Positions 24,463 through 61,264 of a DNA stretch of 64,000 bases are shown piece after piece. The stretch spans positions 992,001 to 1,056,000 of the forward strand of contig NZ_CP097800.1 in NCBI RefSeq assembly GCF_000612545.2, in the 5' to 3' direction. Each line of letters starts with the position of its first letter. Positions within the stretch are counted from its first letter, which is position 1. The position numbers were made by a program, and so were the translations under genes. This DNA is from Streptomyces sp. PCS3-D2 (GTDB lineage Bacteria; Actinomycetota; Actinomycetes; Streptomycetales; Streptomycetaceae). The notes under the pieces are model-generated. The model was given only the letters and a program-made list of their open reading frames with translations. It had not been told where the DNA came from and did no database searches.

Positions 24463-24563
24463 GACTGCTCCCTGGGGGACGTCTTCCCTGGTGGGAAGGT
24501 GGTTTCCGGTTCTTCCCGGCGTGTTCCGGGCTGATGGGACGAGCATGGCAAGGCGCGTTCAAC

Positions 24564-24600
24564 AGCCGATCGACGCAGGAGCACCGTGCGTCGATCGGCT
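24564..24600. terminator. hairpin terminator at the end of the peptide cluster
   Basis: A perfect 14-bp stem (24564-24577 with 24587-24600) with a 9-base loop, located 65 bases beyond the stop of the amidinohydrolase gene. It marks the probable 3' end of the minus-strand cluster transcript. Confidence 0.8.
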
Positions 24601-25478: not shown

Positions 25479-25541
25479 GGGGGCTCCGGAAGGGTACGCG
25501 CGGGGTGCGGGGCAGGGAGGTGCGGGCGGGAGCGGTGCCGG

Positions 25542-26837: not shown

Positions 26838-26843
26838 GGCGGG

Positions 26844-40340
<13,497 letters not shown>

Positions 40341-40371
40341 GTCACGGCGTGGATGGTGTGCGGGGTGTGCC

Positions 40372-41382
40372 TCAGGCGGGGACTGCGGTCGTCGGGCGCA
40401 CCGTGGGCTGGCAGTCCAGGAGGTCCACGGGGCGGCCCATGGCGACGGCGATCTTCCGGTCGCCGCCGAAGGGGTCGCGGCCGTGTGCGCAGAGCACGTT
40501 GTCGACCAGCATCACGTCGCCCACCTGCCAGGTCTCTCGGACGGTGGCGGCGTCGTAGGCCGCGTTGAGGGCGTCCGCGTCCTCCCGGGAGAGGGGTTCG
40601 CCATCGCCGAAGCCGGTGTTGAAGGGCAGGCCTTCGGGTCCGAACTCCTCGACCATGGCCTCCCGGATGTCCGGATCGAGGGACCACTCGTTCCAGAAGG
40701 CCAGGTGGTTGAACCAGACCTCCTCGCCGGTCCGAGGGTGGTGGATCGTGGCCGAACGCAGCTGGCTGGTGCGCAGGTTGCCGTCCGGCTGCCACTCCCA
40801 GGCAATGCCGTTGTCCCGGCAGTACCGCTCGACGTCGGCCCGGTCCTCGGTACCGAAGGCGGTGCGCCAGCCGAGCGAGATGTAGTCCGAGAAGGTGCGG
40901 GTGAGCCTCCAGCCGGTGCTGCGGCCCCGTTCGACCAGGTGGTCGGGGAGGGCGGCGAGGACCTTGCGGACATCGGCGGTCGGGGTGGCGCCGCCGGTCG
41001 CGGGGGCGGTCAGGCAGGCGAAGAGCAGCCGGCCGGGAAAGGTCAGCGTGTAGCTGTTCTCGTTGTGCATCCGGATGGACTGGGCGGGCGGCAGGTCCGT
41101 GGAGGAGAAGACGCCGTCGCCGAAGTCGCTGCGCGGGGTGGCCTTCTCCCGGTACGGGGTGGGCTCGGGGATGAGCACGTCGCGTACGGCGGCGACGTCC
41201 GCGGCCTGCGCCACCGGCAGGCCGCGCAGGAAGATCGTGCCGTGCTCGTCGAGGGCGGCGGTCAGCGCGGCCTCGTTCTCGCGCAGCCACTCGCAGGCCT
41301 CGGCGAGCCCGGCGGTGGCGGGCACCTGGGCGAGGGCGGGGCGGCCGGGGTTCAGTTCCCAGTTCGGCATGGCGGCGGTCAC
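40372..41382 (-). CDS. SyrP-like Fe(II)/2-oxoglutarate amino acid hydroxylase
   Basis: A 336-residue TauD/TfdA-family oxygenase. The metal triad is visible as HNE (His106, Glu108) and a distal His near residue 300 in LCAHGRDPF; the Arg binding 2-oxoglutarate is probably in [10 protein letters not shown]. Segments [13 protein letters not shown] and [14 protein letters not shown] are typical of the SyrP/KtzO/KtzP group that beta-hydroxylates acidic residues bound to NRPS carrier domains. It lies between mbtH and the four-module NRPS. The GTG start overlaps the mbtH stop by 4 nt, the pattern seen elsewhere in this cluster; an ATG four codons later is an alternative. Confidence 0.88.
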
Positions 41383-41591
41383 CGCTGGTCGATGGCGGCC
41401 AGCAGGCTCGCCGGGCGGATGTCGGTCCAGTGGGCCTCGATCCAGTCGAGGCACTCCTGGCGGGGGGCCTCGCCGTGGACGGTGGTCCAGCCGGCCGGCA
41501 CGTCGATCCAGACCGGCCAGAGCGAGTGCTGGTTCTCGTCGTTGACCAGGACCAGGTAGCCGGAGTTGTCGTCCTCGAACGGGTTGCTCAT
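41379..41591 (-). CDS. MbtH-like protein
   Basis: A 70-residue MbtH family protein that binds and activates NRPS adenylation domains. The signature NxExQxSxWP ([10 protein letters not shown]), PAGW and the C-terminal WTDIRP are intact. It is the only MbtH seen and presumably serves all eight A domains. It is the first gene of the third transcription unit, with a good GGAG ribosome binding site and the triple-heptamer promoter upstream. Confidence 0.97.
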
Positions 41592-41635: not shown

Positions 41636-41692
41636 AAGGTAGGGGCGCCGCAGGCGCGGGAGCGGCACAAGCTCCGGCAGGTGAGCGGCAGT
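41636..41692 (-). promoter_or_regulatory. triple-heptamer promoter, site C (mbtH unit)
   Basis: On the plus strand the heptamers CGGCACA (41663-41669), CGGCAGG (41675-41681) and CGGCAGT (41686-41692) start 12 and 11 bp apart. The minus-strand -10 hexamer TACCTT (41641-41636) is separated from the nearest heptamer by 21 nt. Sites A and B have the same geometry. The layout resembles SARP operators overlapping a poor -35 element. The mbtH start codon is 45 bases beyond the hexamer. Confidence 0.75.
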
Positions 41693-41729
41693 TGCGGCAC
41701 TGCCGGACCCGTGCGGGGCGGGACTGCCC

Positions 41730-42941
41730 TCAGCGGGGGGTGAGGCGGACCGGGAAGTGATCCAGGCCGAAGTTGATGATCGAGCGGTTGTAGGTGACGG
41801 GCGCGGTCGGCTCGATGACGGCGGCCTTCTCCAGCGCGGCCGTGTAGAGGGCGCTCAGCTCGGCCTTGGCCAGCGGGGCGCCGATGCAGTAGTGGGCGCC
41901 CAGACCCAGCGCGAGGTGTTTGTTGGGCGAGCGGTCGAGCCGGATCTCCTCGGGGTGTTCGAAGGCTTCCGGGTCCCGGTCGGCGGACCACACCCAGACC
42001 GCGACCCGGTCGCCCCGGCGGATCTGCCGGCCACCCAGCTCGATGTCCCGGGTGGCGGTGCGCAGCGTGTGCAGCCCCACCGAGGTCCAGCGCAGGAGCT
42101 CGTCCACGGCGGAGTCCATGGACACCTCTCCCCGCTGCAGCGCGCGCCACAGGTCGGGGCGGTGGACGAGGGTGTGCAGGCCCATGGCGGCCGTGTGGCG
42201 GACGGTCTGGACGCCGCCGACCACGATGTTGTCCAGGTTGAGCACCACGTCCTCGATCGGCAGCAGCCGTCCGCCGACCTTGTACGTGGCCATCATGGAG
42301 ATCAGGTCGTCGCGCGGGTCGGAGCGGCGCAGCATCACCTGGTGCATCAGGTAGGGGATGAGCTTCTGGTGACCGGCGCGCCGTTCCTCCGGTGTGCGGC
42401 CGAGGAAGGCCACGTCGCACACCCGGACCACCATGTCGCGGTCCTTCTCGGGGACGTCCAGCAGGTCGCACATGACCGCGAGCGGGAGCGCGGAGACCAC
42501 GTCGACGAGGTCCGCCTCGCCCTGCTCGACGGCCCGGTCGAAGAGTTCGGCGGCCCGTTCGGCGATCGAGCGGGCCGCGCCGCGCACGCCACCCTTGGAG
42601 AAGAACGGGTTGGCGGGGGCGCGCAGTTCGCGGTGGCGGGGCGGGTCGGTGAGGGCCATCATGCGGCCCGATCCGACCGGTACGTTGCCCTCTCCGGAGC
42701 CGAGCAACGAACCGGACTCCGAGCTGAACACGGCCGCGTTGCGCAGCACGTCCGCCGACTCCCGGTAGGTGAGCACCGACCAGACCGGGCCGTCGTCGAC
42801 GGTCTCGGTGCGGTGGACGGGGGCTTCCCGGCGCAGCTCGGCGATCAGGGCCGGGGTGTCGGGGCGGGCCCACAGGTCGGGGTCGGTGAGGTCGACGGCA
42901 CCACTGGTGGTGGCGGCGGCGGTGGCGGTGGGCGTCGGCAT
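41730..42941 (-). CDS. cytochrome P450, putative carrier-bound amino acid hydroxylase
   Basis: A 403-residue P450. The heme-ligand segment is LGLGAHYCIGAPLAKAEL with Cys352; the usual first Phe is Leu. The ExxR-type and the PRHRELRAPANPFFS region are recognisable. The I-helix reads GGVQTVRHT, keeping Thr but with Gln where an acidic residue is usual. The ATG shares one base with the stop of the type II thioesterase, which in turn overlaps the A-T gene. An A-T protein, thioesterase and P450 side by side is the known arrangement for beta-hydroxylating a carrier-bound amino acid (novobiocin NovH/NovI, nikkomycin NikP1/NikQ). Here the amino acid would be Gln- or Glu-like. Confidence 0.88.
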   Translation of the reverse strand: MPTPTATAAATTSGAVDLTDPDLWARPDTPALIAELRREAPVHRTETVDDGPVWSVLTYRESADVLRNAAVFSSESGSLLGSGEGNVPVGSGRMMALTDPPRHRELRAPANPFFSKGGVRGAARSIAERAAELFDRAVEQGEADLVDVVSALPLAVMCDLLDVPEKDRDMVVRVCDVAFLGRTPEERRAGHQKLIPYLMHQVMLRRSDPRDDLISMMATYKVGGRLLPIEDVVLNLDNIVVGGVQTVRHTAAMGLHTLVHRPDLWRALQRGEVSMDSAVDELLRWTSVGLHTLRTATRDIELGGRQIRRGDRVAVWVWSADRDPEAFEHPEEIRLDRSPNKHLALGLGAHYCIGAPLAKAELSALYTAALEKAAVIEPTAPVTYNRSIINFGLDHFPVRLTPR

Positions 42942-43765
42942 CACTGCTCCCTGGAGGCGTGGCGGGGCGCGGCGGGCACCTGGGGGTCCGCCGGGAGAGA
43001 GGTCAGGAGAGAGATCAGGAGGTCGGCCGGTCCGGGCCGGTCGACGGTGGCGAGCAGGTGTCCGCCGGGGACGACACGGTGGCTGAAGGCGCCTCGGGTG
43101 TGGGCCGCCCAGCCGGCGAGACCGGTGGTGGCGAGCATCGGGTCGTCGGCCCCGGCCAGCGCGTGGAGGGCGGAGCCGATCGGCGCGTGCGGCCGGTGGC
43201 GATAGGTGGCGCTGACGGCGAGGTCGGCGCGGATGGCGCCGAGGGCGAGCTCGGCCAGGTCCGGATGGGCCCGGACGGACTCCTCCAGGCCGGTCAGCCG
43301 CAGGAGTTCGGACGCGTCCAGGTCCCTGGACGCCCGCCCGCTCCATTCGGCGGGGCTGGGCGCCCCCACGGCGACGACCAGTTCGGGCCGGCGGTCGGCG
43401 GGGAGCGCGCGGGCGACCTCGTAGGCGAGCAGCGCGCCGAAGCTCTGGCCGTAGAACGCGAACCGTCCGCCGTCTCCGCCCGTCAGGTGCGGGGTCAGCG
43501 CCTCGGTGACGGCGGCCACCAGGGCGTCGAAGTCGGCCGGCATCGGGTGGCGGCTGCGGCCGCCGCGGGCCGGCGGGCGCAGCGCCCAGACTTCGGCGGC
43601 GGGGGCCAGGGCGCGGGCGAGCGGAGTGTAGGCGGTGGCGTCGCCGCCGGCGTGCGGGAAGCAGAACAACCGGACGGGACAGTGGGGTTGGGGCATGGGG
43701 ACGAAGAGCCAGTCGCCCTCGACCCGGGGGCGGGCGGTGCGCGCAGTGGGAAGGGCGGTGGTCAT
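42941..43765 (-). CDS. type II thioesterase
   Basis: A 274-residue alpha/beta hydrolase with RLFCFPHAGGDATAY, the nucleophile motif GQSFGALLA and a C-terminal PGGHLL histidine. Stand-alone thioesterases remove misloaded groups from carrier domains or release an amino acid modified on a stand-alone carrier. The ATG overlaps the A-T gene stop (ATGA), and its stop overlaps the P450 start, so the three are translationally coupled and probably act together. Confidence 0.93.
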   Translation of the reverse strand: MTTALPTARTARPRVEGDWLFVPMPQPHCPVRLFCFPHAGGDATAYTPLARALAPAAEVWALRPPARGGRSRHPMPADFDALVAAVTEALTPHLTGGDGGRFAFYGQSFGALLAYEVARALPADRRPELVVAVGAPSPAEWSGRASRDLDASELLRLTGLEESVRAHPDLAELALGAIRADLAVSATYRHRPHAPIGSALHALAGADDPMLATTGLAGWAAHTRGAFSHRVVPGGHLLATVDRPGPADLLISLLTSLPADPQVPAAPRHASREQ

Positions 43766-45567
43766 CGGACGGCCTCCCGACGGGCGGTGAGGGCGGGCCG
43801 GGCGGCGGCCGGGCCGGCCTCGGCTGCGCGCCGGACCGCGGCGGTGAATCCGGCCAGGTCGGCCGCGTCCAGCAGGTCGCGGAGCTGGAGCTCGACGTTG
43901 AGCTTGCGGCGCAGGAGGTGGACCACGCGCAGGGCTGCGAGCGAGTGGCCGCCGAGGGAGAGGAAGTCGTCGGTCTGCTCGACGTCGGGCACGCCGAGGA
44001 CGGTGCGCCAGACCTCGGCGACCTGCTCGTCCACTCCGCCCCGCCCGGCCGGCTCGGCTGCGGGTGCCGCCGCCGGGGCGGGCAGGGCGGCGTGGTCGAC
44101 CTTGCCGTTGGGGGTGAGCGGCAGGGCGTCCAGGACGGTCACCGAGGAGGGCACCAGGTGCGCCGGCAGGGTGCGGCGCAGTGCGGTGAGCAGGTCCGCG
44201 GGGCGGAGGTCGGCACCGGTGACGAATCCGGCCAGCCGGTGGTCCCCGGGGGCGGGCTCGTGCAGGCAGGCGGCGGCAGCGGTGACTCCGTCGAGGGCGC
44301 CCAGTGCGTGCTCGACCTCGCCGAGTTCGACGCGGAAGCCGCGCAGCTTGACCTGGCGGTCCACCCGGCCGACGTACTCCAGCAGGCCGTCGGCGGAGCG
44401 GCGCGCCTGGTCTCCGGTGCGGTACATCCGGGCTCCGGGCTCGGTCGCGAACGGGTCGGCGGTGAACCGGCTCGCGGTCAGGCCCGGGTGGCCCGGGTAG
44501 CCGTGCGCGAGGCCGGGGCCGGTCAGGTACAGCTCGCCGACGGCGCCGGCGGCCGTCACCGGGGCGAGGCGGCCGTCCAGCAGATAGGCGCGGACGCCCG
44601 GGAGCGGCTCGCCCAGGTGCGGGCCGGGGCCGGCGATCGGGGCGGTGATCGCGTCGACGGTGCACTCGGTGGGCCCGTACAGGTTGAGGGCGTCGGTGCG
44701 GGCGTCGGCCAGTTCGCGCCAGGTACGGGCGGGCACGGGCTCGCCGCCCATGAACAGGCGCGGGATGCGGGAGCCGGACAGCGGCTCGCGGAGCAGGTGC
44801 CAGTGCGAGGGGGTCAGGTCGAGGTCGGTGACGTCGTGCTCGGCGAGGAGCCGTGCGAGGCGGGCCGGTTCGGCCCGCTGCGTGTCGTCGATCACGACCA
44901 GGGTGTCGCCGCGGCAGATACGGACCCACTGCTGGACGGAGGCGTCGAAGGAGACGCTGGCGTTCCAGGCGACGACGCCGGGCTCAGGGCGGTAGGCGCC
45001 GCTGAGCTCCAAGGCGGCGACGAGTCCCGCGACGGCGCCGTGCGGGACCTCGACGCCCTTGGGGCGGCCGGTGGAGCCGGAGGTGTAGATCACGTAGGCG
45101 GAGTCGAGCGGGTGCGGGGCGAACGGAACCTCGGAGCCCTCGGCGGCGTCGGCGTCCGGGCGGAGCACCGGGACGCCGGCCGGTACGGGAGGCCGGGCAT
45201 CGGTGCTCACCACGGCGGCGAGGCGGGCGTCCGCGGCCATGAAGGCGATCCGCTCGGCCGGGTAGGCGGGGTCGAGCGGGACGTACGCCGCGCCGGCCCG
45301 CCAGACGGCGAGCAGCGCGACCGGCAGGTCGGCGGTACGGGCGAGGTGCACCCCGACCCGGTCGCCGCGCCGGACCCCGGCCGCCGCCAGGGCACGGGCC
45401 AGGCCTGCGGTACGGCGGTCCAGGCCGGCGAAGTCGAGAGTCCCGTCCACGGCGTGGACGGCGACCCGGCCGGGGTACGCGGCGACCACGGCGCGCAGCC
45501 GGGCCGACAGGTCGGCGGCTGCCGGGGTGGTGGCGGTGGCGCTGGACGGCTCGGCGAAGGTGGTCAT
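43762..45567 (-). CDS. stand-alone adenylation-carrier protein (A-T), Gln/Glu-like pocket
   Basis: A 601-residue two-domain NRPS protein: adenylation domain ([26 protein letters not shown]) and a carrier with LGGHS near residue 540. Pocket residues read DAQDFGLVDK, close to the glutamine code DAQDLGVVDK, so Gln or Glu is the likely substrate. There is no C domain. The preceding NRPS ends in an unpaired C domain, so this protein can complete a split module in trans; it may also present its amino acid to the neighbouring P450. The ATG follows AGAGGAG, which decides it over the longer Pro/Arg-rich frame. Confidence 0.92.
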   Translation of the reverse strand: MTTFAEPSSATATTPAAADLSARLRAVVAAYPGRVAVHAVDGTLDFAGLDRRTAGLARALAAAGVRRGDRVGVHLARTADLPVALLAVWRAGAAYVPLDPAYPAERIAFMAADARLAAVVSTDARPPVPAGVPVLRPDADAAEGSEVPFAPHPLDSAYVIYTSGSTGRPKGVEVPHGAVAGLVAALELSGAYRPEPGVVAWNASVSFDASVQQWVRICRGDTLVVIDDTQRAEPARLARLLAEHDVTDLDLTPSHWHLLREPLSGSRIPRLFMGGEPVPARTWRELADARTDALNLYGPTECTVDAITAPIAGPGPHLGEPLPGVRAYLLDGRLAPVTAAGAVGELYLTGPGLAHGYPGHPGLTASRFTADPFATEPGARMYRTGDQARRSADGLLEYVGRVDRQVKLRGFRVELGEVEHALGALDGVTAAAACLHEPAPGDHRLAGFVTGADLRPADLLTALRRTLPAHLVPSSVTVLDALPLTPNGKVDHAALPAPAAAPAAEPAGRGGVDEQVAEVWRTVLGVPDVEQTDDFLSLGGHSLAALRVVHLLRRKLNVELQLRDLLDAADLAGFTAAVRRAAEAGPAAARPALTARREAVR

Positions 45568-45697
45568 GCGGAGCTCCTCTTTGATCGGTTGCTGCGAAAG
45601 GGATGGGGCGCGCTGTGGTGTCGCCCGTGCCCGCCGCGGGCGGGGACGGTCCGGCGGGGCGGAGCCGCCGGCGCCGGGGCGGTACCCGGCGGGAGCC

Positions 45698-45775
45698 GGA
45701 CGTCCGGGTGCGCGGACGTCCGGGTGCGCGGGCGGGAGGCCCTGGCGGGCACGGGGTCGGGCGGGCACGGGGTCG
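45698..45775. repeat. two pairs of 16-bp tandem repeats upstream of the A-T gene
   Basis: Unit 1 (45698-45713, 45714-45729) contains GGACGTCCGGGTGCGC; unit 2 (45744-45759, 45760-45775) contains GGCGGGCACGGGGTCG. Both are exact and lie in the 243-base gap between the C-A-T-C NRPS and the A-T gene, the rest of which shows no gene. Confidence 0.8.
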
Positions 45776-45810
45776 GGCCGCGGTCGGGGAACCCCCGCCC
45801 GGCACGGGGC

Positions 45811-48800
45811 TCAGGCGGTGGCCGCCAAGCGGGCCAGGGCCTTGGTGTAGGCGTCGATGAAGCGGTTCGCGGTGGCGTCGTCCACCACCGCCCGCTGGTG
45901 GTCCACGGCGAGCAGTACGCGCTGCGACACCGGGTCCTGGATCAGCGAAGCGCCGAAGGCGAAACTGTTGGGCTCGTGCCGCAGCGTCGGCTCGCAGCCG
46001 ATCCGGCCGTCCTCGATACGGGCCGCGCTCAGCCGCCCGAGCGCATGGAACCGCAGGTAGCCGAACTGGCTGTCGAGCGCGGTGTCGGCCATCATCCGGG
46101 CCAGCCGGGCGAACGGCACCCGGCGGTGCGGCATCATGTCCAGCTCTTCGCGGTGCACGTGCCGTACCAGCGCGGCCAGGTCCTCCCCGTCCGGCTCCGC
46201 GACGAGCGGGACGGTGTTGAGGAACAGCCCGTACACCTCGGTCCCGCCGAGCCGTTCCAGCCGGCCGTTCATCGCCAGTCCGGTGGTGACCCGCCGACGT
46301 CCCGTGATCTCGGCCAGCGCGTACAGGTGGGCGGCGAGCGCGACCGACTTGACCGGGACGGCCAGCGCGTCGGCGACCGTACGCAGCTGTCCGGGGGCGT
46401 CGGGCAGCACCCGCTCGACGGTGCGCGGCAGTTCGTGGACGTCCTCGCTGCCGGGCCACAGCTGGCCGGTGGCGCCGTCGAGCCGGCTCCGCCAGTACGC
46501 CAGGGAGCCCGGGTCGGCGGCGGCCTCGCGTTCCACGGCGACGAAGTCCCGGAAGGCGGTGCGCGGCGGCGGCGTCGGCGCGGAGGCCGGATCGGCGGCG
46601 AGTGCGGTGTGCCGTTCGAGGATCTCGGTGAGCAGCGAGGTGAAGCTCCAGCCGTCGAGGATGGCGTGGTGTTCGGAGATGGTGAGCTGGAAGGCGTCGT
46701 CGGCCAGGCGCTGCACGGTGACCCGGAAGAGCGGCGGTTCGGCCAGGTCGAAGGGCCGGTCCCGGTGGTGCTCGAAGACCGCCCGGACCTGTTCGTCCTG
46801 CTCGGCCGCGGCCGCTGCCCGCAGGTCCGCGAACTCGACGGGCACGGGCAGCGTGCCGTGCACCAGCTGGAGGGGTTCGCCGTAGCCGGAGAGGTCGAGG
46901 CCGGTGCGCAGGACCGCGTGCCGGGCCATGGCCTCCTCGACCGAGCGGCGCAGCGCGCCCTCGTCGAGGTCGCCGGCGATCCGGTAGGAGTTGACGTTGT
47001 GGTAGCTGTCGGTGCCGCCCGCGACCTCCATGTGGAAGACCATGGACAGCTGCATCGAGACCATCGGATAGGCGTCGGCGATCCCGGGCGGCAGCAGGTC
47101 CCGGTCCTCCTCGGCGATGAGCGCGAACGGCCGGCCGGCAGCCGGATCGGCGGCCACCGGGCGGGCCAGCGGCAGCAGTCCGGCGACGGTGGGCGCGTTG
47201 AAGACGTCCCGCAGGGTGACCTGCCAGCCCCGGTCGTGCAGGGCGCCGGCGAGCTGGACGGCGCGGATGGAGTCTCCGCCGAGGTGGAAGAAGTCGTCGT
47301 GGACGCCGATCCCGCCGACGCCGAGGACCTCCGTCCAGACTCCGGCGAACAGCTCCTCCTCCGGCGTGCGCGGTTCGACGTGCCGGCCCGCCGCCGCGGG
47401 CACGGCCCGGTCGGGGTCGGGCAGCGCGGCCCGGTCGACCTTGCCGTTGACGGTGAGCGGCAGCCCCTCCAGGACGGTGAAGCTGGCCGGGATCATGTAG
47501 TCGGGCAGTGAGCGGCCCAGGAATTGCCGCAGGTCCGCGGGCTCGGCCGGGGGACGCCCGGTGAGGTACGCGGCGAGCCGGTCGTCGTGCACGGTGACGA
47601 CGCAGGCGTCCACCCCGGGGTGCGCGCTGACGGCGTTCTCGATCTCGCCGAGCTCGATGCGGAATCCCCGCAGCTTCACCTGGAAGTCGGCCCTGCCGAC
47701 GTACTCCAGCCCGCCGCCGGGCAGCCGCCTGGCGACGTCGCCCGTTCGGTAGAGGCGGGCGCCGGGCGGACCGTACGGGTCGGCGACGAAACGGCCGGCG
47801 GTGAGGCCGGGGCGCCCCCAGTAGCCGTGCGCGAGGCTGCCGCCGCCGATGTACAGCTCGCCGGGGACTCCGGGCGGGCTGGGGCGCAGCCAGTCGTCCA
47901 GGACGAGTGCGGTCAGGTGCGGCATCGGTTCGCCGACGAGGCTGCGCTCGAAGCCGGCGCCGCCCTCGGCGACGTCGTGGACGGTGACGTGGACGGTGGT
48001 CTCGGTGATGCCGTAGAGGTTGCAGAGGCGGGCGGGCGGCAGCGGGTCGAGGTCGTGCCAGCGCTGGACCACCCCGGGGTCGAGAGCCTCGCCACCGAGC
48101 ATGATCCACCGCAGGGCGGGCAGGGCGCGGGGGCGGCGGCGCAGGGCCGGTTCGAGCTGGCGCAGCGCCGACGGGGTCAGGCACAGGTGCGTGACCCGTT
48201 CCTCGTCGAGCAGGCCGGCGAACTCCTCGGGCGAGCGGCTGGTGAGGTGGGGTACGACGACCAGGCGGGCGCCGTGCAGCAAGGCGCCCCACAGCTCCCA
48301 GACCGTCCAGTCGAAGGCGTAGCTGTGAAAGAGCGTCCAGACCGTGTCCGGGCCGAAGCCGAAGTGGTCGCGGCCGGAGTCGAGGAGCCGGCTGACGTGC
48401 TCGTGGGCGACGGCGACGCCCTTGGGGCGGCCGGTGGAGCCGGAGGTGAAGATGAGGTAGGCGAGGTCGCCGGGGTGGCCGGCCGCGGGAGGCCGGACGC
48501 TCGGGTGCCCGGCGATCTCCTCGGCGTCCGCGGCCAGGTCGAGGGTCTGCCAGGGGCCGTCCGGGGCCCGGTCGGGCCGGTCGGTGACGAGAAGGTTCAC
48601 CGCGGTGTCGCCGAAGACCAGGGCCGCCCGGTCGGCCGGGGCGGCCAGGTCGACCGGTACGTAGGCTGCGCCGGTCTTGAGGACGGCCAGGATGGCGGCG
48701 GGTACGGCGGCGGTGCGCTCCAGCAGCAGGCCGACCCGGTCGCCGGGTCGGACGCCGCGGGCGAGCAGGGTGTGGGCCAGCCGGTTGGCACGGCGGTCGA

Positions 48801-50325
48801 GTTCGGCGTAGTCGACGGTACCGTGCGCGTCGGTCACGGCGGGCCGGTCACCGTGGACGTCGGCGGCACGCTCGAAGAGGTGGTGCAGGCAGTTGCCGGG
48901 GTCGAGCCGTGCGGGGCGGTGCGGCGGTGCGGCGGAGGTGAGCCGGCGCACGGTGGCGTCCGGGTCGGCGAGGGCGGTGTCCAGCAGGCCGGCGTAGTCG
49001 GCGGCGAGGCGGCGCACGGTACCGGCGTCGAACAGGTCGGTGCTGTACTCGGCTTCGCCGCGCAGGCCGCCGCCGCCGGTGTCCTCGAAGACGGACCAGG
49101 TGAGGTCGAACTTGCTGGTGCCGTTGGAGCGTACGGTTCGGCGGGCGGTGACGCCGGCGCCGAGGGAGAGGGGCGCGGGGTCCTCGGTGTGGGCGCCGAA
49201 CACCACCTGGACCAGGGGCGGGTGCTGCGGCGTGCGCGGGGCACCGAGCAGGTCGACGAGCTGGTCGAAGGGGACGTCGAGATAGCCGAAGGCGTCGAAG
49301 GCGGTGTCCTGCAGGTCGGCGAGCAGGCCGCGGAAGGTCGCGTCGGGTGCGAGGCGCACGCGCAGCGGCAGCAGGTTGACGAAGTAGCCGAGCAGGTCAG
49401 CGAGTTCGGGACGGTTGCGGATGGTGACCGGGGTGCCGACGAGCAGGTCGTCCTGCCCGGTCCAGCGGCTCATCAGCAGTGCGAACGCCGCGAGTTGGAC
49501 GGTGTACGGGGTGACGCCCTCCTGCTCGGCGAGCTCCCTGACCCGGGCGGCGGTGCCGTCGGCGAGGTCGAAGGGCTCGGTGGCGCCGCGCTGGCTGCGC
49601 TCGGCGGGCCTGGGCCGGTCGCCGGGCAGCTCCAGCAGGGTGGGGGCGCCGTCCAGGCTCCGCTTCCAGTGGGCGAGGTGCTCCTCGTAGGAGGTGTGCC
49701 GCTCCTCTTCGGCCCAGTCGGCGTACTGGGTGGTGAGCGCGGCCAGGACGGGGGCCCGGTGCTCGGCGGCCGCCCGGTACAGCTCGGCGAGTTCGTGGTC
49801 GAAGAGCTCGGCCGACCAGCCGTCCCAGATGATGTGGTGGACCACGAACAGGAGCGTGGTGCGGTCGTCGGCGAGCCGGAAGGCCTCGGCGCGCAGCAGC
49901 GGCCCGGCGGCCAGGTCGAACGGCTCGCCCGCCCGCTCGGCGATCAACTGCTCCGCCCGGTTCGCGCGTTGGTGTTCGGGCAGTCCGCGGAGGTCGGTGA
50001 CGGCGAGGTGCACGGGAAGGGCGGGATGGACGTGCTGGCGCGGGCCGTCCGCGTCCAGGACGAAGGCGGTGCGCAGCACCTCGTGCCGGGCGCTCACGGC
50101 GTCGAGGGCCCGCTGGAGCAGCACGAGGTCGAGCGGGCCGGTGACGTCGTAGGTCCAGGGGGTGGTGTAGGTGGCGGCCTGCGGATTCCAGCGGTCGAGG
50201 AACCACAGGCCGCGCTGGAGTCCGGTGACCGGGGCACTGCGGGGCGAACCGGCGGGGGTGGGGGCGGACGGCCCGTCCGGCGAGGGGGTCGGCGGCGCGG
50301 CGGGCAGGTCGGCGGACGGGCTCAC
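45811..50325 (-). CDS. NRPS, C-A-T-C with an unpaired terminal condensation domain
   Basis: A 1504-residue synthetase: C (about 30-450, HHIIWDGWS), A (470-960), T (LGGDS near 1017) and a second C domain (about 1075-1500, HHAILDGWS). The A pocket reads DWWCMGLVHK; with the YGITETTVHV segment it groups loosely with Thr-type domains (DFWNIGMVHK), but the substrate is uncertain. The terminal C domain opens with PPGIADAYPMVSMQLSMVFH, a style seen in C domains that use free-standing carriers. It should condense the growing chain with the amino acid on the separate A-T protein encoded just downstream. The GTG follows GAAGGGA. Confidence 0.94.
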   Translation of the reverse strand: MSPSADLPAAPPTPSPDGPSAPTPAGSPRSAPVTGLQRGLWFLDRWNPQAATYTTPWTYDVTGPLDLVLLQRALDAVSARHEVLRTAFVLDADGPRQHVHPALPVHLAVTDLRGLPEHQRANRAEQLIAERAGEPFDLAAGPLLRAEAFRLADDRTTLLFVVHHIIWDGWSAELFDHELAELYRAAAEHRAPVLAALTTQYADWAEEERHTSYEEHLAHWKRSLDGAPTLLELPGDRPRPAERSQRGATEPFDLADGTAARVRELAEQEGVTPYTVQLAAFALLMSRWTGQDDLLVGTPVTIRNRPELADLLGYFVNLLPLRVRLAPDATFRGLLADLQDTAFDAFGYLDVPFDQLVDLLGAPRTPQHPPLVQVVFGAHTEDPAPLSLGAGVTARRTVRSNGTSKFDLTWSVFEDTGGGGLRGEAEYSTDLFDAGTVRRLAADYAGLLDTALADPDATVRRLTSAAPPHRPARLDPGNCLHHLFERAADVHGDRPAVTDAHGTVDYAELDRRANRLAHTLLARGVRPGDRVGLLLERTAAVPAAILAVLKTGAAYVPVDLAAPADRAALVFGDTAVNLLVTDRPDRAPDGPWQTLDLAADAEEIAGHPSVRPPAAGHPGDLAYLIFTSGSTGRPKGVAVAHEHVSRLLDSGRDHFGFGPDTVWTLFHSYAFDWTVWELWGALLHGARLVVVPHLTSRSPEEFAGLLDEERVTHLCLTPSALRQLEPALRRRPRALPALRWIMLGGEALDPGVVQRWHDLDPLPPARLCNLYGITETTVHVTVHDVAEGGAGFERSLVGEPMPHLTALVLDDWLRPSPPGVPGELYIGGGSLAHGYWGRPGLTAGRFVADPYGPPGARLYRTGDVARRLPGGGLEYVGRADFQVKLRGFRIELGEIENAVSAHPGVDACVVTVHDDRLAAYLTGRPPAEPADLRQFLGRSLPDYMIPASFTVLEGLPLTVNGKVDRAALPDPDRAVPAAAGRHVEPRTPEEELFAGVWTEVLGVGGIGVHDDFFHLGGDSIRAVQLAGALHDRGWQVTLRDVFNAPTVAGLLPLARPVAADPAAGRPFALIAEEDRDLLPPGIADAYPMVSMQLSMVFHMEVAGGTDSYHNVNSYRIAGDLDEGALRRSVEEAMARHAVLRTGLDLSGYGEPLQLVHGTLPVPVEFADLRAAAAAEQDEQVRAVFEHHRDRPFDLAEPPLFRVTVQRLADDAFQLTISEHHAILDGWSFTSLLTEILERHTALAADPASAPTPPPRTAFRDFVAVEREAAADPGSLAYWRSRLDGATGQLWPGSEDVHELPRTVERVLPDAPGQLRTVADALAVPVKSVALAAHLYALAEITGRRRVTTGLAMNGRLERLGGTEVYGLFLNTVPLVAEPDGEDLAALVRHVHREELDMMPHRRVPFARLARMMADTALDSQFGYLRFHALGRLSAARIEDGRIGCEPTLRHEPNSFAFGASLIQDPVSQRVLLAVDHQRAVVDDATANRFIDAYTKALARLAATA

Positions 50326-50407
50326 GGCCTCGTTCCCTTCGGTCGGGCGGGCGGACGGGCGAACGGACGGGCGGGTGGACGGGCGTGGCTGCGGGCCGGG
50401 CGGCGCG

Positions 50408-55198
<4,791 letters not shown>

Positions 55199-55239
55199 CC
55201 AACCCCGATGAATTAACGACGCTGCGGGTAGTCGTCTCG

Positions 55240-55296
55240 ACGATAGGGCCGCATTTCCGAGGCGATCGGCAGATTGCCCGGAAGGCGATCGGCAGT
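55240..55296 (-). promoter_or_regulatory. triple-heptamer promoter, site B (NRPS unit)
   Basis: Plus-strand heptamers CGGCAGA (55267-55273), CGGAAGG (55279-55285) and CGGCAGT (55290-55296), start spacings 12 and 11 bp. The minus-strand -10 hexamer TATCGT (55245-55240) is 21 nt from the nearest heptamer. A short inverted repeat (GGCAGTT/AACTGCC, 55291-55306) overlaps the outer heptamer. The NRPS start is 42 bases beyond the hexamer. Confidence 0.78.
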
Positions 55297-55405
55297 TTCA
55301 ACTGCCGCCCGGACGAGGACTCGATGGGCAGCATCATGCGCAGACGGAAGGGCCCGCCGGAGCGCACACGGGCGCCCCGGCGGGCTGCGGGAAAGATATT
55401 TTCGG

Positions 55406-56680
55406 TTATCCGGCGGCAGGATTTCCGGGGAAATCCGGGGACCAGACGTCGTCGCGGTCCAGCGCCTCCGGCGCGTATTTTCCGAGGGCGCTGATCAGCA
55501 GCCGGAGTTCCAGTGCGAGGCACTCCGCGAAACGGATCAGCCCGTCCTGCGGATCCTCGGCGGTGGCGAGCAGGGCGGCCCGTCCCAGGCCCACCGCGCG
55601 GGCGCCGAGCGCCAGGCTCTTCACCGCCCTGCCGCCCTCCCACATCCGACCGGAGACCAGCAGGCACGGTGGCGGACCGGCGGCCGCCAGCCGGCGCAGG
55701 CACTCCGCGAGCGGCAGGCCGACCTGGTCCGGGAAGGCCCCGGGGGCCCAGCCGGTGCCGCCCTCGGCACCGTCCACGGTGACGGCGTCCGCACCCGCCT
55801 CGGCAGCCACCCGGGCGGCCTCCGCGACGTCCCGGCCGGGATGCAACTTCACCCACACCCGGGCGCGGGGGAAGTTGTTGCGCATGAGCCGGATCTGCTG
55901 GCGCAGGATCTCCGCGGTGAAGGTGCCGGGAGTACTGGAGCGCAGGACCCGGCCGTCCCCGAACACGTCGTCCAGCCCGTACCGGTCGCCGACCCGCGTG
56001 GCCGCTTCGGCGTCCAGGACGGTCATCCCGCCGAGGCCGGGCTTGGCCCCCTGCCCGAGTTTCAGCTCGAAGGCCAGCCGGCCGGACGCCAGGAGCGGCG
56101 ACGCAGCCGGGTCGCTGTAGACGAGGTTCCACACCTCGGCGTCGGCGTCCTCGGTGGACTGCTGGACGGCGACCCCGCCCCGTCCGTCGGGCAGTTGCCC
56201 GGTGTAGGCGCGCAGGCGACCGAGGAGCGCCCGGTCGGCCGCCTCGCCCTGCCTGCCGTAGCCGTTCACGGGCACGACGTTCTCACCGATCACCATGGGG
56301 AGGCCGAGCGCGCCCGCCTGCCGGCTGAGCGCGAGGCCGAGGTCGCCGCCGGCCGCCCGTGTGGAGCCGAGCGCCGACACGTACACCGGCAGGGACGAGG
56401 TGAACCCGCCTATCTCGGTGGTCAGTTCGACGTCCCGGTAGTCGGGCTCACGGCCGAGGTCGATCAACCGGGCGAGCCGCTGCGGCATGAGGACCGGCGG
56501 GGTGATCCGGAGCCCGTCGAGCAGATCGCGCCCCGCGTCCGGCCGGGCGTCCCCTCCGTGCTCCGCGCCGAACAGGACCCGGCCGTACGCGCCGGGCGGC
56601 GGGAAGGCGGCCGCCGCTCCGGCCCGGGCGCGGTGCCGCACCTCCTCCTCGGGGAAGCCGGGCGCGCAGAGGTCGCTCAC
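55406..56680 (-). CDS. stand-alone FMN glutamate-synthase-like domain protein
   Basis: A 424-residue protein matching the FMN-binding synthase domain of glutamate synthase: AFELKLGQGAKPGLGG, VWVKLHPGRDVAEAA, ADAVTVDGAEGGTGWAP and VGLGRAALLA. The glutaminase domain and the cysteine cluster of the large GOGAT subunit are absent. Such single-domain proteins could aminate 2-oxoglutarate to glutamate, feeding the mutase, or reduce another imine/oxime-type intermediate. The GTG start overlaps the stop of the AS-AR-like gene (GTGA); a longer upstream frame reads as a shadow of that gene. It closes the precursor-supply unit. Confidence 0.85.
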   Translation of the reverse strand: MSDLCAPGFPEEEVRHRARAGAAAAFPPPGAYGRVLFGAEHGGDARPDAGRDLLDGLRITPPVLMPQRLARLIDLGREPDYRDVELTTEIGGFTSSLPVYVSALGSTRAAGGDLGLALSRQAGALGLPMVIGENVVPVNGYGRQGEAADRALLGRLRAYTGQLPDGRGGVAVQQSTEDADAEVWNLVYSDPAASPLLASGRLAFELKLGQGAKPGLGGMTVLDAEAATRVGDRYGLDDVFGDGRVLRSSTPGTFTAEILRQQIRLMRNNFPRARVWVKLHPGRDVAEAARVAAEAGADAVTVDGAEGGTGWAPGAFPDQVGLPLAECLRRLAAAGPPPCLLVSGRMWEGGRAVKSLALGARAVGLGRAALLATAEDPQDGLIRFAECLALELRLLISALGKYAPEALDRDDVWSPDFPGNPAAG

Positions 56681-57681
56681 GGTGACACCACCCCGGCCAG
56701 CTTCGGGAAGGCGCTGGCCTGCCAGACGGCGTCCAGTCCGGCGACGTAGCGAGTCAGCCGCTCCACGCCGACACCGAAGCCCGCGCTGCCGGGGACGCCT
56801 TCGCGGACCAGGTCGAGGTACCAGCGGTACTTCTGCGGGTTCTCGCCGGTCTCCCTCATCCGGGTGACGATCTCCGCGTAGTCGTTGGTGCGCTGACTGC
56901 CGCTGCACAGCTCGCCATAGCCCTCGGCGGCGATCAGGTCGAAGTTCTTCAGGAGGCCGGGCTGCTCAGGGTTCTCCCGGTCGTAGAAGCCGCGCGAGCC
57001 CTTGGGGTAGTCGGTGACGAAGAACGGCCGGTCCCGCTGCGCCGAGAGCAACGCCTCGCCGCCCCAGTCGAGTTCCGCGTCCGGGCTCTGCGGGTGGCCG
57101 AGTCCTCGCAACTCGGAGACGGCCTCGGCGTGCCGCATCCGACCGAAGGACCCCTTGAGCAGTTCGGTGAACGCGGCAGTGTCCCGGCCGAGTTCCGCGA
57201 ACTCCTTCGGCAGCTCGCGGACCGTGCTGTCGACCATGTACACCACGAGGTCCTCGACGAGCCGGACGGCGTCGTCGCGGCTCGCGCCGGCCATCTCCAC
57301 GTCGAGCTGGTGGAACTCGGCCAGGTGGCGGCTGGTGCCGGCGGTCTCCAGCGGTTCCAGTCTGACGTTGGGGGCGATGCAGAAGATCTTGTCGAAAGCC
57401 AGCAGCGATGCCTGCTTGTAGAGGATCGCGCTCGTCATCAGTTTGTAGCGGTGGCCGTAGAAGTCGACGTCGACCTGCTTGGAGCCGCGCGAGCCGGGGT
57501 CGGTGACCGGCCCGATGATCGGCGGGAGCAGCTCGGTGAAGCCGCGTCCGCGCAGGAACTCACGTGCTGCGAACAGCAGTTGGTGCTGGATCCGCAGCGC
57601 ACTGCGGGTGGCCGGGGCGGTCAGGTGGCGCCCGGGGTCGGGGAGCGGCGCGACAGGGGCCGTGTGCCCGTCGGTGGTCAT
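56677..57681 (-). CDS. asparagine synthetase-like paralogue of asparaginyl-tRNA synthetase (AS-AR type)
   Basis: A 334-residue class II aminoacyl-tRNA-synthetase catalytic core without an anticodon-binding domain. Motif 2 is recognisable in VRLEPLETAGTSRHLAEFHQ and motif 3 in GFGVGVERLTRYVAGLD; GYGELCSGSQRTNDY is typical of asparaginyl-tRNA synthetases. Archaeal proteins with this layout (AS-AR, Pyrococcus) make asparagine from aspartate, ATP and ammonia. Next to glutamate mutase, whose product is 3-methylaspartate, it may amidate that to 3-methylasparagine, or activate it in another way; this is inference. The ATG overlaps the mutase stop (ATGA), so the two are translationally coupled. Confidence 0.85.
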   Translation of the reverse strand: MTTDGHTAPVAPLPDPGRHLTAPATRSALRIQHQLLFAAREFLRGRGFTELLPPIIGPVTDPGSRGSKQVDVDFYGHRYKLMTSAILYKQASLLAFDKIFCIAPNVRLEPLETAGTSRHLAEFHQLDVEMAGASRDDAVRLVEDLVVYMVDSTVRELPKEFAELGRDTAAFTELLKGSFGRMRHAEAVSELRGLGHPQSPDAELDWGGEALLSAQRDRPFFVTDYPKGSRGFYDRENPEQPGLLKNFDLIAAEGYGELCSGSQRTNDYAEIVTRMRETGENPQKYRWYLDLVREGVPGSAGFGVGVERLTRYVAGLDAVWQASAFPKLAGVVSP

Positions 57682-59156
57682 GTGGTCGGTCCCAACTCTC
57701 GTCGTGGCGTGGACGTCGTACGCGGCGGTACGGGCGTGCGGGGCGGTACGGCAGTGGACGGCGGGGGCGCGCGAAGCGCCTCAGGGGCACGGGCTGCGGC
57801 GGACGGGCCGACGGCGTACGCTTCCGCGGCGCGGTCGTCGTAGGTCCGCTGGACGTGGGACAGTGCCGAGATCAGCCCGGCCGAGCCGAGGATCGGCGGA
57901 CGCGGGCCGCCGTCCGCGAGGCCGGCGATCGGCATCGAGCCGACGCTCGACCAGAGCAGCCGGCCGTCCGGCGCCAGCGAGGTCCGGGCCCGGCCGGCGT
58001 TGTCGGGGTGCAGGCAGTAGGGGACGTCCAGGTATCCGGCGGCGAAGGCCCTCACGAGCGCCCGGCCGACGTCCGCGTCCAGCTCCAGCACCGCCCCGAT
58101 CAGCGCCCGCGCCTCCGCCTCGATGCCGGTGTCGGCCCCGTGCGGGGCGGGCCCCGCAGCGGTTCGCGCCGGGCGGGCGCGCTCTTCGGCGGCGGCCGCA
58201 GCGGCCGTCTCCAGCGCCCGGACGTTCTCCCCCACGGTCGGTATCCGGTGTGCCTCGGCGACGGTCTTGACGATCAGCCGGGCGGCACCGGCCCGCACCG
58301 CCAGCCGGGCCGCGTCCTCCAACAACAGCCGCGCGCCGCCGGCCGAGCGAGGGAAGACGCCCATGTAGGCGTACAGCACGACGTGGTGGTCGACGTCCGG
58401 CAGCAACTCCGCGGCCAGCCTCCCCAGGACGGTGAGCGCTTCCTCGTCCTGCCGCGGATCGGCCTGCTGGGCGTAGCTGAGCGAGACGGAGGTCAGGCCG
58501 TGCTGCCGGAAGAACAGCGCCTCCAGCACACTGACCGCGATCAGCAGGCTCGGCGGACAGAGCTGCCCCATCAGGCAGCCGCCGAAAGTCTCCAGGTGCG
58601 GCTCGGCACCGTGTTCGCGGGTCGAGGCCAGCAGCTCGCAGCCGCGTTGCCAGGCGGCGACCGCCTCGCGCAGCGGCGTACGGCTGTAGGGCAGACAGTA
58701 CGAGACCGGTCCGCCTTCGGTGGCGTCCAGGCCCACCGCCAGCAGCGCGCGGACGATGTGCTCCGGCATCGCCGAGCCGTGCCGGACCTGGACCGGGAAG
58801 CGCGCCCCCGCGACACCCCTGAGGACGGCGCGGGTGGTGTCGGCGGGGTGTGTGGCGATCGGGTAGCCGTTCAGGCCGACGCCGTCGGCGAGGGCCCGCC
58901 GGGCGGCTTCGAGGTCGCCGGTGCGGGTGTAGCTGTCCAGGGTGACGGTGCCGACCGTGACCGCGTCCGCGTCCCGGGTGGCTCGCAGGCCGTCGCGCAT
59001 CCGCAGCGGATCGGCCATGCCCATCCGGGGCTGGACCACCAGGGTGCCGGCGGCCCGGGCCCGGGCGACGAAGGCACCGAAGCCGGAGGCGAGCGCGACG
59101 GTGGCGTCCGGGCGCACGGCCGGGGCACCGCCCGGTGCGCCGGCGGCCCCGGTCAC
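57678..59156 (-). CDS. glmE: glutamate mutase (methylaspartate mutase) large subunit
   Basis: A 492-residue epsilon subunit of coenzyme B12-dependent glutamate mutase, which rearranges L-glutamate to (2S,3S)-3-methylaspartate. Supporting segments are VVQPRMGMADP, LNGYPIATHP, VRHGSAMPEHI (substrate-binding Arg in RHG), GCLMGQLCPPSLLIA and VSLSYAQQADPRQDEEA. Length fits the family. The C-terminal ~45 residues are Pro/Arg/Thr-rich and extra. The GTG start overlaps the small-subunit stop (GTGA). Glutamate mutases in streptomycete clusters supply 3-methylaspartate (for example friulimicin, vicenistatin). Confidence 0.93.
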   Translation of the reverse strand: MTGAAGAPGGAPAVRPDATVALASGFGAFVARARAAGTLVVQPRMGMADPLRMRDGLRATRDADAVTVGTVTLDSYTRTGDLEAARRALADGVGLNGYPIATHPADTTRAVLRGVAGARFPVQVRHGSAMPEHIVRALLAVGLDATEGGPVSYCLPYSRTPLREAVAAWQRGCELLASTREHGAEPHLETFGGCLMGQLCPPSLLIAVSVLEALFFRQHGLTSVSLSYAQQADPRQDEEALTVLGRLAAELLPDVDHHVVLYAYMGVFPRSAGGARLLLEDAARLAVRAGAARLIVKTVAEAHRIPTVGENVRALETAAAAAAEERARPARTAAGPAPHGADTGIEAEARALIGAVLELDADVGRALVRAFAAGYLDVPYCLHPDNAGRARTSLAPDGRLLWSSVGSMPIAGLADGGPRPPILGSAGLISALSHVQRTYDDRAAEAYAVGPSAAARAPEALRAPPPSTAVPPRTPVPPRTTSTPRRELGPTT

Positions 59157-59653
59157 AGCAGCACCCCCGACCCGGTGGGCAGGGCCCGGGAGCCCGATCC
59201 GGTGGGCAGCGAGCCGACGAACGACCGGAAGTCCAGCACCGAGCCGCCCTCTTCGAAGACCCCGTCGAAACCCGCCGTCATCAGCGCCCGCTGCCGGGCG
59301 GACGTGCCGGAACCGGAACCGGATATCCCGAGCTTGCCTCCGATCACGGTGGGCGTGCAGGCCAGTTCGGGGCAGGCGCGCAACGCCTCGATCACCCGCA
59401 GTCCGTCGTTGAAGCCGTGCCCGTTGACACTGCTCAGGACGATGAGGTCCGGTCCGATCCGGTGGCACTCGGCGACCAGCAGCTCGTCCGGCACACAGGC
59501 GCCCAGGTTGGTGACCCGGTGTCCGAGTTCCTCCAGCAGCAGCTGGAGGAAGACCAGGTTCCAGGTGTGCGAGTCCGAGGCCATGGTCGTCACGACGACC
59601 TCCAGACCGGCCGGCTCGGCCTTTCCGTGCTGCTCCACGGCATGCTGCTCCAC
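59153..59653 (-). CDS. glmS: glutamate mutase small (B12-binding) subunit
   Basis: A 166-residue cobalamin-binding subunit of glutamate mutase. The base-off B12 motif is present as DSHTWN (canonical DxHxxG; the His ligand is kept and Gly is Asn), followed by LSSVNGHG and IGGKLGI. Length is near the family norm with a Gly/Ser-rich tail. The start GTG lies 8 bases after GAGGG; a second GTG five codons on is possible. It opens the precursor-supply unit behind the first triple-heptamer promoter. Confidence 0.92.
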   Translation of the reverse strand: MEQHAVEQHGKAEPAGLEVVVTTMASDSHTWNLVFLQLLLEELGHRVTNLGACVPDELLVAECHRIGPDLIVLSSVNGHGFNDGLRVIEALRACPELACTPTVIGGKLGISGSGSGTSARQRALMTAGFDGVFEEGGSVLDFRSFVGSLPTGSGSRALPTGSGVLL

Positions 59654-59717
59654 GGCGCAAACCCTCTGTGTCGGTGGGTGGATGTCCGGGGGGCGGGCCC
59701 GCCCGGCCGTGGACAGA

Positions 59718-59774
59718 ACGCTAGGAAGGATCCCGGTACCGGACCGGCAGCTCGCCCGGCAGGATTCGGGCAGT
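59718..59774 (-). promoter_or_regulatory. triple-heptamer promoter, site A (glutamate mutase unit)
   Basis: Plus-strand heptamers CGGCAGC (59745-59751), CGGCAGG (59757-59763) and GGGCAGT (59768-59774), start spacings 12 and 11 bp. The minus-strand -10 hexamer TAGCGT (59723-59718) is 21 nt from the nearest heptamer. The mutase start is 65 bases beyond the hexamer. Same geometry as sites B and C. Confidence 0.78.
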
Positions 59775-59834: not shown

Positions 59835-61073
59835 TCACCCCGCGGCCGCCAGTTGCGCGTACACGCCGGTCCCGCACAGGCGCCGACACAGGTTCAGCAC
59901 GGTGAACCGGACGCCGTCGCGGGCCGGGACGCTGCGGATGAGGCCGCTCGCCAGCAGCTCGTGCACCGCCGCCAGGCACTCCTGCGGGGGGCGGCCGCTC
60001 AGCTCGACGGCATCCTCGCCCGACCAGTCCCCCGGTGTGGCCGCGAGCCGCTCCAGCAGGTCCCGCTGGCCGAGCGTCAGCCGGTCCAGCGCGGCCCCGA
60101 GCGCCGCCCCCACGTCCGCCCGGCCGCCGAACCCCGCAGGGGGCGGCGCCAGATGGAACGGGCCGTCCGCGAGCCGTGCCACCAGCTGGCGTGGGGAAAG
60201 CACCGTCGACCAGCCCGCCACCAGCTCCAGCGCCCCGGGCAGACCGTCGAGCTCGCGGCAGATCGACGCCACGGCGGGCGCCTCCTCCGGCTCCAGGCGG
60301 AAGCCGGGCCGCAGCCGGCGCAGGTGCGAGAGCAGCAGCCGTACGGCGCCCACCTCGGCCAGCGCCACCGGATCGTGGTCGAGCTCCGGCCCGGGGGTGG
60401 GCAGCGGAGCGAGCGGGATCACCTGCCCGCCGGGCAGCGGCTGCGCCACCCGGGCGGTGATCAGCACCCGCAGGCCGGGGCAGCGGTGGAACAGTTCGTC
60501 CAGCAGGGCCGTGTCCACGCCCGCGTCGGCTCCGTCGAGCACGAGCAGGGTGGGCCGCTCCCCTGCCGTCCGGGCGAGCCCGGTCACCGGCTGCCGGCCG
60601 CAGTCGATCCAGCGCACCGACCACCGTGAGGCGAGGTGCAGCCGTCTCGCGACCTCCAGGACCAGCCGGGTCTTGCCGACCCCGCCGAGGCCCGCCACGG
60701 TCACCAGCCGGTCCCCGTGGACGGCGAGGGCGTCGGTCAGGACCTCGACCTCCAGTTCCCGGCCCACGATCGCGCCGCGGGCGACCGGCGGCGCGGTCGG
60801 TTCGTCGCGCGGCTCCTCCACGAGCCCCTGGCGGCGCGCGGCCGCCTCGAAGCTCGACCGGTGCTGGCCCTCCAGCCGCAGTGCGTCGGCCAGCAGCCGG
60901 ACCGTCTCCTGCCGGGGCCGCTGCACCCGCCCGCTCTCCATGTCCCGGATCGCGCGGACGCTCAGGGTCGCGTGATCGGCGAGCACCTGCTGGGTCAGGC
61001 CGACGCGCTCGCGCCGGACCCTGAGCAGCTCTCCGAAGCCCGTCGTCGACTGCAGCGACGTAACACCGTGCAT
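59835..61073 (-). CDS. XRE-type regulator with NB-ARC-like ATPase domain
   Basis: A 412-residue protein with an N-terminal helix-turn-helix of the XRE family (LLRVRRERVGLTQQVLADHA, IRDMESGRVQRP), then a P-loop ATPase: Walker A GLGGVGKTR near residue 120 and LLVLDGADAG as Walker B, and helical C-terminal segments (LDRLTLGQRDLLERLA). Actinomycete regulators of this build occur near biosynthetic clusters, so it may control the adjoining peptide genes, but no TTA codon or operator marks it. The ATG follows GGAAGG. It is the same strand as and just upstream of the mutase unit. Confidence 0.82.
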   Translation of the reverse strand: MHGVTSLQSTTGFGELLRVRRERVGLTQQVLADHATLSVRAIRDMESGRVQRPRQETVRLLADALRLEGQHRSSFEAAARRQGLVEEPRDEPTAPPVARGAIVGRELEVEVLTDALAVHGDRLVTVAGLGGVGKTRLVLEVARRLHLASRWSVRWIDCGRQPVTGLARTAGERPTLLVLDGADAGVDTALLDELFHRCPGLRVLITARVAQPLPGGQVIPLAPLPTPGPELDHDPVALAEVGAVRLLLSHLRRLRPGFRLEPEEAPAVASICRELDGLPGALELVAGWSTVLSPRQLVARLADGPFHLAPPPAGFGGRADVGAALGAALDRLTLGQRDLLERLAATPGDWSGEDAVELSGRPPQECLAAVHELLASGLIRSVPARDGVRFTVLNLCRRLCGTGVYAQLAAAG

Positions 61074-61264
61074 GCGTCGTCCACCTTCCGTGGGTTGGCC
61101 AAGTACCGGGGACCGAGGGACCCGGAGGCCGTACGGCCCGCCGGGAGCGGCTTCGACCGGTGGTGACCTTCGAGCCGTTGTTCCCCTTGCTGCCGATGGT
61201 CCCCGCCCCGGCTCTACGGCCGATCAACGGCGGATCACCACCCGCCCCACCGGGACCGGGAACG

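Follow-up and report, generated by a model that had tools for sequence, protein, structure and literature searches.

The window analyzed here comprises 64,000 nucleotides of the Streptomyces sp. PCS3-D2 genome (contig NZ_CP097800.1) and contains a nonribosomal peptide synthetase (NRPS) gene cluster together with the genes of an AfsR-type large SARP (20988-24206, plus strand, 1072 aa) and of an XRE-STAND regulator (59835-61073, minus strand, 412 aa). Three promoters of the cluster carry identically built operators, termed A, B and C. Comparison with related loci makes it likely that the SARP activates the XRE gene and that the XRE regulator in turn activates the cluster via operators A-C.

All three operators are located on the minus strand, which is the direction of transcription, and each is 57 nt long. 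Operator A (59718-59774) lies in the gap between the XRE gene, which ends 60 bp ahead of it, and a MutS-like gene, upstream of the genes for the MutS-like protein, MutE, an aminoacyl-tRNA synthetase (aaRS)-like and a glutamate-synthase-like protein. It contains CTGCCG three times (59773-59768, 59762-59757 and 59750-59745), followed by the -10-like hexamer TAGCGT (59723-59718). Operator B (55240-55296), found between the glutamate-synthase-like gene and the first NRPS gene and upstream of the latter, consists of CTGCCG (55295-55290), CTTCCG (55284-55279), CTGCCG (55272-55267) and TATCGT (55245-55240). Operator C (41636-41692) is located between a P450 gene and the MbtH gene, upstream of MbtH and a large NRPS gene, and consists of CTGCCG (41691-41686), CTGCCG (41680-41675), GTGCCG (41668-41663) and TACCTT (41641-41636). 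All three agree in geometry to the base, with three CTGCCG-type repeats in steps of 11 and then 12 bp, 21 nt and the -10-like hexamer TANCNT. The triple repeat with its fixed distance at three promoters, and its location in non-coding gaps (here always between genes on the same strand), had been proposed in the original prediction and were borne out. That prediction had read the repeats as CGGCAG-type heptamers on the plus strand; the repeats hold, but the coding strand reads CTGCCG, so the orientation had to be reversed. It had also likened them to PimR heptamers with 5-bp spacers. The PimR repeats (CGGCAAG) are described with 4-bp spacers, thus an 11-bp period, and on the coding strand (PMC5930380, in excerpt), so the likeness to A-C is on the other strand. 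A PimR-type heptamer was rejected as the identity of A-C because of the opposite strand and the different distance to the -10 region. SARP operators are heptamer repeats with an 11-bp period; the steps in A-C are 11 and 12 bp, as are those at relatives' sites scored for this spacing. A search against Rfam gave no structured-RNA match at the gathering threshold. In operator B, the first repeat also forms one half of a perfect 8-bp inverted repeat (55290-55307) with arms 2 nt apart.

In the complete genome (7,628,241 bp) the operator pattern has three exact matches, all in the window, which agrees with the lack of a fourth copy in other gaps noted in the original prediction; no places were found with one or two mismatches and 14 further places with three, while the reversed pattern, used as control, was found at 28 places with up to three mismatches. 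In the genus, the operator was detected in 25 of 393 genomes (32 places), compared to none of 393 for the reversed pattern, and surroundings were retrieved for 10 of the 25 operator genomes. The survey of the class gave matches in two of 394 genomes, our own and G571, and none in the control. The matches in G571 and G292 were taken as chance, since no XRE, SARP or query-set cluster gene was detected nearby. A search with the aaRS-like protein yielded 64 loci, and the operator arrangement recurs in many aaRS loci upstream of MutS-MutE units and NRPS or MbtH genes; it is also present in Saccharothrix (L021) and Actinokineospora (L031, L044). Comparison of 75 distinct sites showed that the spacers carry little information; these sites were selected by 12 of 14 repeat letters plus TA..T, so the repeat and TA..T columns are partly fixed. 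In 45 operator-linked loci the distance from the second CTGCC of the 12-bp-spaced pair to TANNNT is 27 nt in 30 of 34 cases, and the control gave three cases, none of them at 27 nt; since the loci were chosen for having operators, this figure is a description of the geometry rather than an independent test. The uniqueness in the genome, the conservation in relatives and the fixed distance to the -10 hexamer support the view that A-C are one shared operator of one regulon.

The proposed reader of A-C is the XRE-STAND regulator. Its N terminus contains an XRE-type helix-turn-helix (HTH) (HTH_31, E value 5.3e-11, 43.1 bits with a Pfam cutoff of 27), with a putative NTPase region whose matches are both just below cutoff (nSTAND_NTPase5, 33.3 bits, cutoff 34; AAA_16, 29.9 bits, cutoff 32.6); the P-loop G..GVGK.R is invariant in 26 aligned homologues. 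The HTH weakly matches phage 434-type proteins, and the register of its recognition helix, SVRAIRDME, was set by eye. In every operator-linked XRE protein seen, this helix reads S[VI]R[AT].RD. XRE genes with other helices had no operator in the stretches examined: SVRAIRN (G029:C23), SSRAIRN (L056-L059), SERTIRD (L155), SVRAIGE (L156), SVRALRY (L117, in the L053 cluster) and TPHAVSS (L159). Among 82 loci of at least 12 kb, the canonical helix occurs with a site in 53 and without one in three, whereas loci with another helix or no XRE have a site in three cases and none in 23. The three canonical loci without a site contain variants, namely a 28-nt distance (L013), a 13-bp step (L017) and a 12/12 triplet (G104), the last of which was split by a stretch boundary in the scan and seen in the joined stretch. 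The three site-bearing exceptions (L062, G188, G248) are located on contigs that end at the site or within some 4-27 kb of it. When the XRE proteins were grouped into 22 lineages at 60% identity, the operator or a variant was present in 16 of 16 canonical lineages and in none of the six others; among lineages met via aaRS or XRE searches alone, this held for eight of eight canonical ones and again for none of six. Scans for variant operators at changed-helix loci (L057, L059, L154, L196, L212) revealed none that was convincing. Three XRE control stretches (L157, L160, L161) gave no HTH match, hence no helix, and no operator.

Two groups of relatives deserve mention. The XRE relatives at L154 (G029:C23) and L056-L059 show an exchange of Asp for Asn in the helix, and no CTGCC operator was found near them. 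In those of L189-L190 (G306), L191-L192 (G104) and L158 (G034:C234), Pfam detects the HTH alone, and one to four CTGCC operators adjoin the genes. Since these HTH-only proteins accompany the same operators, the STAND domain does not seem to be needed for the choice of the site.

The SARP encoded at 20988-24206 combines a SARP domain, NB-ARC and TPR (Pfam), as expected of an AfsR-type large SARP, and its best matches among solved structures are AfsR (689 bits). We propose that it acts on the XRE promoter. A candidate SARP box is located ahead of the XRE gene (61196-61239, minus strand; GGTGATC-N4-GTTGATC-N4-GTAGAGC, 9 nt, GACCAT). Two further candidates, both on the minus strand, lie between the SARP gene and a divergent open reading frame (ORF) of 386 aa (20864-20907; GTTGAGC-N4-GGTGATC-N4-GTTGAAC, 9 nt, CAGAAT) and at the start of a 100-aa ORF, 24244-24546 (24542-24585; GGTGCTC-N4-GTCGATC-N4-GTTGAAC, 9 nt, CATGCT). 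All three show heptamers with an 11-bp period that end 9 nt before a -10-like hexamer, as expected for SARP operators. The triple-box pattern occurs three times in the window, not in the reversed sequence and on average 0.0 times in 200 Markov windows; since it was drawn from the same boxes, this count is descriptive. The boxes at 20864-20907 and 24542-24585 have counterparts in 10 of 10 relatives' stretches scanned and are probable SARP targets; the 386-aa and 100-aa ORFs next to them have no Pfam matches. Upstream of the XRE gene, GGTGATC-N4-GTTGATC is the most conserved block in ten aligned upstream regions, and 13 of the 16 relatives within the XRE lineage of the window carry this core unchanged. 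In the own genome it is unique without mismatches and found at two places with one mismatch; with two mismatches there are 21 places, compared to two in the control, so similar SARP boxes may exist elsewhere in the genome. In the window the two-heptamer pattern gave eight matches with up to three mismatches (3.52 expected; reached in 2 of 100 shuffles). The L022 group has divergent SARP and XRE genes, and the gap between them carries 11-bp repeats of the type CGGTAC/CGGGAA (found by eye) instead; the SARPs of this group differ from those of the window group with GGTGATC/GTTGATC. Thus, the box at the XRE gene changes with the SARP, while CTGCCG stays.

Starting from the computed operators, their fixed geometry and conservation, their match to the XRE protein and its helix, and the separate conserved SARP-type boxes, we infer the pairing of proteins and boxes, activation instead of repression, the stoichiometry and a role of the NTPase domain. 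Operators A-C would be binding arrays for the XRE-STAND regulator, in which one protomer probably contacts each CTGCCG through its recognition helix S[VI]R[AT].RD. A spacing of roughly one helical turn between direct repeats suggests that protomers bind head to tail; with steps of 11 and 12 bp, three of them could sit on one face of the DNA helix, up to the -35 region, and recruit RNA polymerase to the TANNNT hexamer at the fixed distance. A STAND domain could drive this head-to-tail assembly, in the manner of MalT. The AfsR-type SARP would stand one tier above, where it probably switches on the XRE gene by binding to the box with the 11-bp period in front of it. This order, SARP to XRE to A-C, is the simplest reading and resembles that of PimR and PimM (PMC5930380, in excerpt).

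The operator also goes with the XRE gene in loci defined by the aaRS-like gene. We scanned 62 aaRS-selected loci, 56 of them of at least 12 kb and picked regardless of the operator, counting as XRE an HTH of at least 80 bits. The operator was present in 36 and absent from seven of the loci with an XRE gene, compared to one and 12 without (the reversed sequence of the aaRS loci gave no operator sites in 1.94 Mb). Several observations weigh against the model. In the same loci the presence of a SARP fits nearly as well, with 34 and five loci compared to three and 14. XRE and SARP are therefore not separable by these counts alone, and the case rests on discordant loci. Many loci of the wider set came from the search with the operator pattern itself, and closely related ones enter the counts more than once. 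In G188 (L131-L132, L203; G188:C112) a triple site with 14 of 14 letters is located on a 38-kb contig in which neither an XRE nor a SARP was detected, and the regulator may be encoded elsewhere, on another contig; L062 and G248 likewise have sites without an XRE, with contig ends nearby. The two-repeat pattern was found at 19 places in 17 of 393 genomes and at nine in the control, so that about half of these matches could be chance before the neighbours are checked; 3 kb were inspected around all 19, and at least 40 kb around the sites of G169, G259, G390, G090, G306, G104, G140 and G282. The SARP-box core is degenerate in L013 and was not found near the XRE genes of L012 and L015, two loci in which XRE directly follows the SARP gene on the same strand. 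Finally, the SARP is 33 kb distant in G104. In A. rubida there is an unlinked SARP, with 52% identity in its SARP domain, and NB-ARC is matched on the same contig 50 kb upstream, beyond the retrieved stretch.

Direct binding of the SARP to A-C, in an unusual triple arrangement with 11/12-bp steps, would agree with described SARP operators, whose direct repeats overlap the -35 region or lie close to it (PMC10936776, PMC5930380, PMC10972967, each in excerpt). By our own reckoning from PMC10936776 (in excerpt) and a TA at -12, the third repeat is in the register of the AfsR upstream repeat, which would suit a SARP and is a further point for direct binding. A SARP is also linked in 42 of 56 operator loci. 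The operator does not, however, follow the linked SARP: the other 14 loci have none in the stretch examined, several being limited by contig ends. No SARP was detected in six clusters with XRE and operator, for which 56.6 kb (G169), 60 kb (G259), 80 kb (G306), 38 kb (G034:C234), 100 kb (G103, with one ORF of 22 bits) and 120 kb (A. rubida, L016) were examined; such SARP-less operator clusters span five XRE lineages. SARP action in trans is conceivable there. Conversely, operators are absent from SARP clusters that lack an XRE (L028, L034) or whose XRE has a different helix (L053, SVRALRY; G029:C23, SVRAIRN), and six of 48 SARP loci in the same scan have no site, of which L013 and G104 contain variants. 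Of the seven XRE loci without a site among the aaRS loci, L013, L017 and L060 have variants or a two-repeat site and L056-L059 the changed helix. In addition, the recognition helices of the SARPs vary among clusters with the same operator, and there are separate conserved candidate boxes for the SARP. The original prediction had named the SARP at 20988 as the binder, marked as an inference, and had listed the XRE regulator among the proteins to be tested; since the operator tracks the XRE and its helix, and the SARP has separate boxes, we gave up this assignment and regard direct SARP binding as very unlikely.

The two proteins might also act jointly on A-C, for instance as a mixed STAND assembly in which one protein occupies some repeats and the other protein the rest. 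Both contain STAND-type NTPase regions and are usually linked, and the two steps are unequal (11 and 12 bp), but the three repeats have one common consensus, operators occur without a detected SARP, and XRE proteins in which only the HTH is recognized keep their operators, so we consider joint binding most improbable. Many XRE proteins are repressors, and the regulator could occupy A-C as such, relieved by a signal via the NTPase domain. However, the repeats reach from further upstream to the -35 region and keep a constant distance to the -10 hexamer, and a box of the SARP type, an activator, precedes the XRE gene. This layout suits activation; repression is hardly to be expected. With activation by the XRE regulator as the preferred model, we lean towards a more general statement: actinomycete cluster regulators that share the XRE recognition helix S[VI]R[AT].RD form a family, which recognizes tandem CTGCCG at a fixed distance from the -10 hexamer, with or without a STAND domain, a change of the helix goes with loss of the operator, and SARPs feed this family via a changeable box of their own. 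The pair would then be a readable two-tier code for silent NRPS clusters.

The putative unit behind operator A (55406-59653, minus strand) comprises the MutS-like gene (59153-59653), MutE (within 57678-59660), the class II aaRS-like gene (56677-57681) and the glutamate-synthase/FMN-like gene (within 55406-56908). This module stays together beside different NRPS genes across many actinomycetes. Operator B precedes two NRPS genes (50408-55198 and 45811-50805), the gene of an A-T protein (43762-45768) and the P450 gene (41730-43346), which presumably form a single unit (41730-55198, minus strand). Likewise, MbtH (41379-41591), an NRPS-TE gene (26844-40340), an MFS gene (25542-26837) and a DDAH-like gene (24666-25478) would form one unit behind operator C (24666-41591, minus strand). 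A literature search for the compound of the cluster returned nothing.

A search of the open-access literature gave no prior description of this operator or an XRE regulator of this kind; the parts are of known kinds, and the combination and the operator code appear to be new. If the model is correct, a little-studied type of regulator acquires a binding site, a recognition helix and a promoter layout, all of them searchable. The regulons of silent peptide clusters would become predictable from sequence, and the XRE gene would be the switch to overexpress. It would also follow that a well-known regulator such as a SARP in a cluster can mislead the assignment of operators.

Several known systems resemble parts of this arrangement. 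The STAND activator MalT oligomerises on direct repeats and has an HTH of the LuxR type and a long sensor; here the comparison concerns the way of working only. The MmyB/MltR family also links an XRE HTH to antibiotic genes, and the structure 3pxp is a weak match to the XRE HTH (E value 0.16); the family is described with a PAS-like ligand domain and proposed pseudo-palindromic B-boxes (PMC3406030, in excerpt), compared to an NTPase region and direct repeats here. A C-terminal PAS-like domain was not found in our XRE protein, for which Pfam gives HTH and NTPase matches only. For an XRE protein on three direct repeats, WhiJ9 of Streptomyces venezuelae offers a precedent: it is of the XRE type, binds three direct repeats and is needed to activate the neighbouring gene (PMC10294661, in excerpt). 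Its consensus (CGXXCTCAAC), the position 113 bp upstream of the start site and the developmental locus are different. AfsR is the closest relative of the window SARP among solved structures, and the candidate boxes share the 11-bp period of the afs box; GTTGATCG of the window boxes is one letter off the AfsR sequence GTT(T/C)ATCG (PMC10972967, PMC10936776, both in excerpt). Operators A-C, in contrast, have neither the afs sequence nor its distance to the -10 region. The closest parallel to the proposed order is PimR-PimM of polyene clusters, where, as suggested here, the promoter of a further regulator is the target of a SARP, and that regulator acts on several biosynthetic promoters (PMC5930380, in excerpt). 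Here, however, the SARP is of the AfsR type, the second regulator is XRE-STAND and not PAS-LuxR, and the operator of the second tier consists of three direct repeats.

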